Shown one piece after another: positions 23,896 to 25,177 of a DNA stretch of 64,000 bases (position 1 is the stretch's first letter; each line of letters starts with the position of its first letter). Made by a program: the position numbers and the translations under genes. Under the pieces are notes generated by a model. The model searched no databases and was not told where the DNA came from. It saw nothing but the letters and a program-made list of their open reading frames with translations. The stretch is from positions 868,001 through 932,000 of the forward strand of contig NZ_AP024888.1 of the NCBI RefSeq assembly GCF_024346995.1, in the 5' to 3' direction. The DNA is from Vibrio palustris (GTDB lineage: Bacteria; Pseudomonadota; Gammaproteobacteria; Enterobacterales; Vibrionaceae).

Positions 23896-23986
23896 GCTTA
23901 ACGCCGCATTAAGGTGTGAGCGACGCTTGGCTATACTTGAGCGAAGCGAAACTGCCAAGCGTTGGGAATCACTCTTAAATGCTTGT
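23896..23986 (-). repeat. attC-16, left part (split by IS110 element)
   Basis: Begins CTTAACGCCGCATTAAGG on the plus strand, nearly identical to attC-2, and ends AAATGCTTGT at the insertion. The core TTGTTAGTT continues at 25169-25177; rejoined it is about 100 bp. Confidence 0.87.
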
Positions 23987-24016
23987 ATGGATAATGACAA
24001 CTCAAATTAGGGTAAA

Positions 24017-24160
24017 GTGAGACCCAGGCTTTAGCTGCAACTAAAGCTCTCTATGTCGTAGTTCGATTGAACGCTGGCTCCTCTATCGAGAGACCGATAA
24101 CAAACATGAACGCGATATAGAACTCCAAGCACCAAACTCGAATACTCGACTGGGTCTCGA
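24017..24160 (+). ncRNA. Candidate bridge/seek RNA of the IS110 element
   Basis: GAGACCCAG (24019-24027) pairs perfectly with CTGGGTCTC (24150-24158), closing a 140-base domain. Just inside, GCTTTAG and CTAAAGC form a seven-base hairpin (24028-24047). Inside the domain TAACAAAC (24098-24105) is complementary to GTTTGTTA at the right insertion junction and CAAGCA (24126-24131) to TGCTTG at the left junction. IS110 elements are known to encode such guide RNAs in the leader. Guide assignment is inference; short matches could be chance. Confidence 0.6.
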
Positions 24161-24192
24161 ACCCGCATTACGCAAGCAAGAGTTAGCTTATT

Positions 24193-25149
24193 ATGAATAC
24201 AAACACACTTCAAAACATTAATGTCGGTGTCGATACTGGCAAAACAAATCTAGATATCTATATTCGTCCATTAGATATCTTTTTCTCTGTCTCTAATGAT
24301 GATAAAGGAATAAAAGAAGTAATCAGAACCATCAAAAAATATCACCCAGAACGCATCGCCATCGAGGCTACTGGCCGACTTGAAATGCCTTTTATTATCG
24401 CCTGCAACAAAGCCAATTTACCGTTTGTGATTGCCAACCCTATTCACATTAAACGCTTTGCCGGAGCGATTGGACGTAGAGCGAAAACGGATAAACTTGA
24501 TGCTCAATTAATCGCTCATTATAGCGACGCTATCCAGCCTCAACTTACCCAGTTGAAACCAGAAATTATGCAATTAATGAGTAACTTAGTCGCAAGGCGA
24601 CATCAAATATTAACGATGCAAACTATGGAGAAAAACCGTCTACAACAACTTCCTAAAGCACTTCACTCAACCATTAATCCCATTATGACTGCCTTCAAAA
24701 AGCAGATCGAAAAAATCGAAATGCTCATCATGACGCTCATCGAAAAAACACCGGATTATCAGAGCAAAAATATCATTTTACAAAGTGTTCCTGGCATTGG
24801 AAAAGTGAGCGCTGCCGCCATCATTAGCAATGCTCCTGAGCTCGGTTATATCAACAATAAACAAGCCGCTTCTCTAATCGGTGTTGCTCCCATGAATAGA
24901 GAAAGTGGCCGCTACAAAGGTAAACGAATCATCCAAGGTGGACGAGCTCAAGTTCGAACCGTTTTGTATATGGCAATGATGTCCGCTATGCAATCTAACC
25001 CCGTTTTTAAATCCACCTATCAGCGATTGCTGGAGGCAGGAAAACCCAAAAAAGTCGCCATCATCGCCTGCGTTAGAAAGATGGTTGTCATCTTAAATTC
25101 AATGCTAAGAGACGGTATTATGTGGAATGACAATATGGCGAAAAATTAA
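24193..25149 (+). CDS. IS110-family transposase (DEDD recombinase)
   Basis: A 318-residue recombinase. The N-terminal RuvC-like DEDD domain shows NVGVDTGKTNLDIY (Asp14), RIAIEATGRLE, and GRRAKTDKLDAQLIAHY. A coiled segment links to the C-terminal transposase_20 domain with SVPGIGKVSAAAIIS and AASLIGVAPMNRESGRYKGKR, which holds the catalytic Ser region, then GGRAQVRTVLYMAMM. All parts are intact, so it is probably active. It is on the strand opposite to the cassette genes. It directs insertion using a guide RNA in known relatives; attC cores appear to be the target here. Confidence 0.93.
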   Translation: MNTNTLQNINVGVDTGKTNLDIYIRPLDIFFSVSNDDKGIKEVIRTIKKYHPERIAIEATGRLEMPFIIACNKANLPFVIANPIHIKRFAGAIGRRAKTDKLDAQLIAHYSDAIQPQLTQLKPEIMQLMSNLVARRHQILTMQTMEKNRLQQLPKALHSTINPIMTAFKKQIEKIEMLIMTLIEKTPDYQSKNIILQSVPGIGKVSAAAIISNAPELGYINNKQAASLIGVAPMNRESGRYKGKRIIQGGRAQVRTVLYMAMMSAMQSNPVFKSTYQRLLEAGKPKKVAIIACVRKMVVILNSMLRDGIMWNDNMAKN

Positions 25150-25168
25150 CGATTGACGCCATACTCGT

Positions 25169-25177
25169 TTGTTAGTT
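25169..25177 (-). repeat. attC-16, core part
   Basis: TTGTTAGTT immediately right of the IS110 element, one base before the LysE cassette stop codon. Confidence 0.8.

Follow-up and report, generated by a model that had tools for sequence, protein, structure and literature searches.

The window analysed here, 64,000 nucleotides of Vibrio palustris DNA (contig NZ_AP024888.1, positions 868,001 to 932,000), carries an IS110-group element located inside an integron attC site. We hold, with a probability of about 0.9, that the leader of this element contains a predicted bridge RNA that would use one of its loops to pair with the R'' arm of attC and the other to pair with the joined ends of the element itself, the DEDD/Ser transposase likely recombining both at a CT/TT core. 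Sequence comparison establishes the ends of the element, its location in attC, its fixed orientation, the helices of the RNA and the guide/target and guide/donor matches that change together. The class of mechanism is ordinary; it is the target, the record of guides and the design of the leader that are unusual. Features lie on the plus strand of the window unless stated otherwise.

The element and the interrupted attC site

The insertion sequence extends from 23984 to 25169, from the base after the left core through the right core included, its ends having been aligned across relatives. It is made of a leader of 209 bases, a gene encoding a transposase of 318 amino acids (24193-25149) and a tail of 18 bases that ends with ATACTCG at 25167 and is followed by the core TT. 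The transposase combines the domains DEDD_Tnp_IS110 (PF01548) and Transposase_20 (PF02371) and matches the NCBI model NF033542 "IS110 family RNA-guided transposase" (E 4e-62). Its residues 11-312 align with ISCro4 (E 4e-30) and IS621 (E 1e-28), and D14, E58, D100, D103 and S238 occupy the catalytic places in the alignment with these two proteins, giving the RuvC-like DEDD domain and the Transposase_20 domain with its catalytic serine that characterize the IS110 group. The genome holds one intact copy of the element and pieces of three more; by eye, the decayed copy L002 also starts within attC.

An IS1111 element with its guide downstream of the transposase gene would show the same preference for attC as that reported for ISKpn4 and ISPst6 (PMC11187229). 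The probability of this reading is negligible, as the tail of 18 bases leaves no room for a guide while the leader holds covarying ones, and as the subterminal repeat read at the ends is only 5 bp long (CCATA/TATGG), against the 11-13 bp (7-17) of the inverted repeats by which the IS1111 family is recognized (PMC11187229, PMC11208160). Furthermore, a second transposase of IS1111-type appearance, located beside the relative L006, aligns to that of the window at only 21% over 166 positions. The assignment to IS1111 was therefore rejected. A long left end of 209 non-coding bases that carries the guide and a right end of 18 bases are those of the IS110 group, and the closest solved relatives are ISCro4 and IS621. 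As judged from its sequence, the element is thus firmly regarded as a complete IS110-group insertion sequence and not an IS1111 one, which settles the question of the group that the earlier note on this DNA had left open.

The left flank reads ..TTAAATGCTTGT|ATGGATAATG and the right end ..CCATACTCG|TTTGTTAG. A core dinucleotide (C/T-T) is shared by both junctions, this copy having CT on the left (23982-23983) and TT on the right (25168-25169); its register was set by the guides in 84 elements, and a CT core is known from IS621 (PMC11208158). The attC flanks that had been described at the junctions are present, but the element ends at 25167, followed by the shared core, and not at 25177. Because TTGT/TGT is common to the target and to the element, the cut site is not placeable to one base from the sequence. 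The right end of the element, ATACTCG (25161-25167), is the left donor half-site, and TGTTA (25170-25174), the R'' end of attC, is the right target half-site. Most of the interrupted attC, from R' (GCTTAAC, 23896-23902) to the L'' side, lies at 23896-23986 on the minus strand, its R'' end being at about 25171-25177; in an arm test anchored on R', this site scores 8.

In the window, eight attC-like pattern matches, two of which share one end, occur on the minus strand between 10700 and 20700 and none elsewhere; the array is therefore patchy or the pattern too strict. No integron integrase exceeds the cut-off in the genome of origin. A distance of about 11 kb (G000:C1:924902-936723) separates the strongest match, which covers residues 17-140 with 122 bits, from a weak match to residues 1-42 (28 bits). 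The integrase of this genome may therefore be broken, and the element remnant L004 lies between these two matches. Other integrase matches may be ordinary recombinases, since control genomes match too. A search of 196 genomes for an uninterrupted version of the attC/LysE cassette found none: matches were obtained in 12 genomes, but apart from the genome of origin they extended over a long stretch in only two, and inspection of the excerpts by eye revealed no attC.

Other ends were noticed in the loci compared. Ends reading TACATGGAYTCCC follow ..GGC directly in 9 of 11 motif matches, where by eye the R' of attC begins; they are found in L006 (about 2182), L093 and L139, and also in L011, L029, L035, L039, L055 and L068. 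Behind such an end, L006 encodes a transposase of 338 amino acids and L093 one that is cut by the locus end, both IS110/IS1111-like. In L006, L093 and L139, a single attC is occupied on both sides, by the TACATGGAYTCCC end at R' and, at R'', by a relative of the window element. Another end, TATGTGGACTCCC, lies at the right junction of relatives of the window element in L004 and L037, directly after the core, and is perhaps that of a further guided element using the same box.

The predicted bridge RNA and its guides

At E <= 1e-60, 5080 protein clusters match the transposase. Of 134 encoding loci in species genomes, the best 80 were retrieved, and 16 further stretches were added from a search of 394 genomes belonging to the same order, 35 of which gave a match at E <= 1e-60. 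After removal of identical copies, 99 elements with the guide motif were retained (the window copy included), 92 of them with the left end and 84 with both ends read; these 84 were used in the guide/end counts, the other 15 having no recognised or readable end. Changes were counted on a tree of 65 open-frame elements, frameshifted copies being excluded, whose proteins are 45% to 99.7% identical (median 72%). Early comparisons relied on 66 of the 80 loci plus the window copy, i.e., 67 (14 truncated or overlooked loci being left out), and then on 53 sites, as 12 lacked both ends and 2 had an incomplete guide. Leaders were aligned twice: alignment A1 contains 66 leaders, after removal of identical ones and of 20 motif matches outside the extraction pattern, and alignment A2 contains 79 leaders extended to the start codon, without L026, L083, L099 and L142 (insertions) and L123 (a second reading of the window copy).

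The leader has a predicted fold that none of 200 shuffles equals in stability (z = -5.3), and the window has no Rfam match at the gathering score among 4227 families. In A1, the 5' stem-loop, the target loop with its inner hairpin and an outer stem described below pair in 95.2% of cells, against 28-42% in slid controls, with two-sided changes in 17 of 35 helix pairs. The 5' stem-loop (24028-24047) is the 7-bp hairpin pointed out previously (24028-24034/24041-24047), and 5 of its 7 pairs show two-sided changes. It is followed by the predicted target-binding loop (24052-24119), whose stem (24052-24064/24108-24119) has two-sided changes in 7 of 12 pairs and whose inner hairpin (24076-24095) is nearly invariant (1 of 7). 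The predicted donor-binding loop (24127-24189) is made of a basal stem, AAGC/GCTT and ACTC/GAGT, and of a hairpin, GGGT/ACCC (24152-24155/24161-24164). In A2, its three helices are paired in 96%, 80% and 99% of cells and jointly in 90.8%, against 19-44% in controls slid by 1-3 columns (79 rows); a shuffle control is close, composition alone giving 90.1%, and two-sided changes occur in only 4 of 13 pairs, against 2.1 in the shuffles. The pair 126-177 is broken in 57 of the 79 rows and 127-176 in 22. CTC/GAG and AAGC/GCTT are both kept but nearly invariant, which leaves little for covariation to reveal; in the hairpin, a single pair (146-152) covaries strongly, with changes on both sides in 19 rows.

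As modelled, the leader shows the layout of the IS621 bridge RNA, with two internal loops holding guides for both strands as in the IS110 group. Three of the four guides covary with DNA, the right donor guide being placed by motif and position only; the helix of the target loop covaries and those of the donor loop are mostly invariant. Stems without covariation in relatives, which had been named beforehand as an argument against a guide RNA, were not what was found: helices covary across the aligned leaders.

Guide positions were assigned from the description of IS621 in PMC11208158. The left target guide, TTGAACGCT (24067-24075), reads the L'' side of attC (TTRARYG), and the right target guide, TAACAAA (24098-24104), followed by the handshake base C24105, reads the R'' end (TTTGTTA). 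Over 87 sites and with an offset of one base allowed, left target guides match their own sites at 486 of 609 bases, against a mean of 353.6 (sd 9.3, maximum 392, 0/10000) for permuted sites, a permutation that leaves shared ancestry in. A stricter test in exact register, without the one-base offset, is weaker and still positive (272/477, permuted 225.7, 0/20000), and one extra spacer base in attC appears to be tolerated. The guide of the window copy matches 5 of 7 bases, 14 of the 53 compared sites fitting better, while that of L022 matches only 2 of 7. On the other side, the TAACAAAC at 24098 that had been noticed as complementary to the right junction is indeed present, and the right target guide located there matches core and right flank at 7/7 bases in 78 of 84 elements (the misses being L037, L050, L051, L084, L096 and L149). 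Core base and right target guide change jointly in 4 of 4 cases on the tree, the guide following the core base in all 65 elements, and the handshake base of the target loop pairs with donor position 7 in 53 of 65.

The attC nature of the sites was assessed by reading from the R'' side, with an L' arm expected just before CGTTA/G. Among 87 distinct sites, 41 score at least 6, against 2.0% of random positions from the same loci; the corresponding values are 34 against 0.7% for a score of at least 7, and 45 against 5.8% for a score of at least 5. Right flanks read outwards as a control give 0/87 at 6 and 2/87 at 5, from which it follows that judgeable insertions share one orientation. A version of the test without the R' anchor was discarded as too permissive (at 7.5, 38/87 against 14% of random positions). 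By eye, several of the 46 sites that fail the strict test look like attC sites that are decayed or whose R' end is lost or occupied, and others are clearly not attC. These failures and the near-constant right half-site TGTTA are what would be seen if the element preferred any TTGTTA-like site and owed its frequency in integrons solely to the fact that cassette arrays are permissive regions rich in transposons; this is highly unlikely, given the 34 sites scoring at least 7, the failure of all outward right flanks at 6 and left guides that match their own sites far above permuted ones. Several of the sites that are not attC match altered guides.

L041, L051 and L084 have guides TATCCTWAT at TATCCYTAT|TGT sites, which are not attC by the test, and in L056 the guide and its attC, the latter with unusual letters, both read ACATTGCTT (9/9). 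Two right guides are compensated, those of L039 (CTTATTA/UAAUAAG) and L041 (TTCGTTA/UAACGAA). Relatives at other targets thus carry changed guide letters, which is the opposite of the outcome that had been stated to speak against guidance, namely the same loop sequences at unrelated targets. Guides for TATCC(T/C)TAT-like sites that fail the attC test are found in L041, L051, L084 and also L113, and by eye the site of L051 and L084 adjoins a short GGATAAGG/CCTATCC hairpin. In genome G105, the copies L087, L135 and L145-L147 have one left target guide (ATTGATTGCT) at several different sites, which gives a measure of the tolerance of left guides.

The left donor guide, ATACTCG (24142-24148), is repeated at 25161, as had been observed, and its equivalents are identical to the right end of their own element in 79 of 84 copies (exceptions: L012, L065, L091, L096 and L149). 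Coordinated changes occur at four positions: on the tree of 65 elements, d2, d4, d5 and d7 changed 1, 3, 1 and 4 times in the donor and 1, 3, 1 and 5 times in the guide, with 1, 3, 1 and 5 joint changes. The neatest example is L086, where right end and guide both read ATAGCCC. The right donor guide, ATTACGCAAG (24167-24176), with the handshake bases CA (together 24167-24178), is a loose motif consistent with the IS621 guide (PMC11208158): AT..CAAN is found in 78 of 79 rows, 66 of which end with CAAG and 20 of which read ATTTGCAAG. As right donor half-sites hardly vary, this guide has no covariation test. It is one base longer in this copy than in the IS621 layout, and the handshake base of the donor loop fits target position 7 in 38 of 73 cases, which gives no clear support. 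The CAAGCA at 24126, proposed in the earlier note as the guide to the left junction, is present, but the same letters at 24173-24178 are a better candidate and those at 24126 probably belong to the basal stem. A right donor guide at 24123-24130, around this CAAGCA, which would give a permuted donor loop, was dropped: with the motif at 24167-24176 the order is again that of IS621, and the relatives L105-L109, at 50% identity, do not conserve CAAG at 24126.

It could also be imagined that protein contacts of the transposase read the folded attC hairpin or the TTGTTA box, the leader being a structured 5' UTR that only regulates translation. attC folds on one strand, the orientation of insertion is fixed, and the fold predicted to be most stable for the leader differs from the bridge fold. 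Nevertheless, letters of the leader change together with those of target and donor, and elements whose guide differs (L041, L051, L084 and L039) occupy sites that the test does not class as attC, which makes recognition by protein contacts very improbable. Covarying stems and guide letters changing with targets support, at the level of sequence, a guide RNA aimed at attC, as had been suggested.

A competing fold and the proposed mechanism

The perfect 9-bp stem, GAGACCCAG (24019-24027) with CTGGGTCTC (24150-24158), that the earlier note took as closing the guide RNA is real, with 92.2% of cells paired and two-sided changes in 4 of 9 pairs. However, it constitutes an alternative fold (24019-24158) and not the frame of the bridge RNA: the GGGT of the donor-loop hairpin is part of its 3' strand, which makes the two mutually exclusive. 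For the leader alone, the predicted energy is -57.8 kcal/mol with the outer stem and -46.9 kcal/mol with the donor loop (about 11 in favour of the outer stem), and in 70 of the 79 leaders aligned the lower energy is likewise that of the outer stem. Ten bases upstream of the start codon lies a GAG that the outer fold leaves mostly unpaired (0.75-0.99); it is paired in the bridge-fold calculation, since the basal stem was imposed there. As this ribosome-binding GAG would be free in the outer fold and would form the 3' strand of the donor-loop basal stem in the bridge fold, one transcript could be message or guide, not both. It is tentatively suggested, as a rather doubtful possibility, that the leader is an RNA switch of this kind in an IS110 clade that has specialised in attC sites at their R'' arm and complements the IS1111 elements, which take the R' arm. 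Binding of the transposase would have to pay the energy cost of the bridge fold. The two competing conserved folds make the control of a bridge RNA between message and guide directly testable.

The hexamers GATAAT (-10, 23990-23995) and TTGACG (-35, 25153-25158, at the right end) are joined only in a circle. Joined right and left ends give TTGAC[GA]-17-GATAAT in 69 of 84 elements, the other 15 lacking this exact pattern, and TTGACG-17-GATAAT in this copy; they likely form a circle promoter, in keeping with the circle-junction promoters reported for the IS110 family (PMC11187229). The 130 bases upstream of the integrated leader showed no promoter-like site on the plus strand.

By analogy with IS621 (PMC11208160, PMC11208158), the element would excise as a circle whose joined ends would act as a promoter transcribing the guide; the leader RNA would then bind the transposase, and top strands would be exchanged at the core. 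Upon insertion, attC loses its R'' box beside the rest of the site, and the cassette is therefore likely no longer excisable there. The modelled bridge RNA likely directs the element, together with its marine relatives, to a single defined arm of attC, tying a natural RNA-guided recombinase to the sites by which integrons shuffle genes. Moreover, nature provides dozens of guide/target pairs, including a few retargeted ones, in which guide letters are readable against their sites.

Comparison with known systems

IS621 reportedly targets REP sequences, according to the title of Choi 2003, whereas the window element targets the R'' arm of attC. Like IS621 and ISCro4, it has a DEDD/Ser transposase of 318-341 amino acids, a guide RNA (predicted in this case) in the left end, target and donor loops each arranged as left guide, hairpin and right guide, a core dinucleotide, a handshake base and an ATA/TAT repeat around the donor (PMC11208160, PMC11208158). 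The linkers of the donor loop are, as in IS621, 2, 2, 2 and 1 bases long (G121-G122, A131-U132, G155-U156 and U168) when 8 bases are attributed to the left donor guide. Unlike both elements, this copy has a TT core at the donor. In the clade of the window element, the donor-loop hairpin also has a conserved competitor, the alternative helix with which it is incompatible.

IS492 of Pseudoalteromonas atlantica has the target CTTGTTA. It belongs to the same short-transposase branch of the IS110 family as IS621 (PMC11187229).

Published work already describes the bridge RNAs of IS110-group elements and how they act (PMC11208160, PMC11208158), as well as attC targeting by the IS1111 members ISKpn4 and ISPst6 (PMC11187229). 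A survey of Shewanella integrons mentions IS110 copies in arrays and no insertion sequence detected interrupting attC (PMC9229058). IS110-group elements guided to attC were not described in the literature searched (among the titles and starts of abstracts listed, with subscription journals sparsely covered), which is weak evidence of absence. As far as this literature goes, an IS110-group clade apparently aimed at the R'' arm of attC is new, as are two mutually exclusive conserved folds predicted upstream of a transposase start.

The IS1111-attC group is reportedly treated by Tetu and Holmes (2008) and Post and Hall (2009). Like the window element, its members ISKpn4 and ISPst6 combine site-specific insertion at one end of attC, a DEDD transposase and a guide RNA (PMC11187229); in contrast, their guide lies downstream of the gene and their subterminal repeats are long. 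The IS1111-looking copies found among our loci sit at the R' end (GGC|TAC), the end of attC opposite to that used by the window element. This suggests that attC is hit at opposite ends by guides of two separate transposase branches, and that the inactivation of cassettes by guided transposons could therefore be predicted from sequence.
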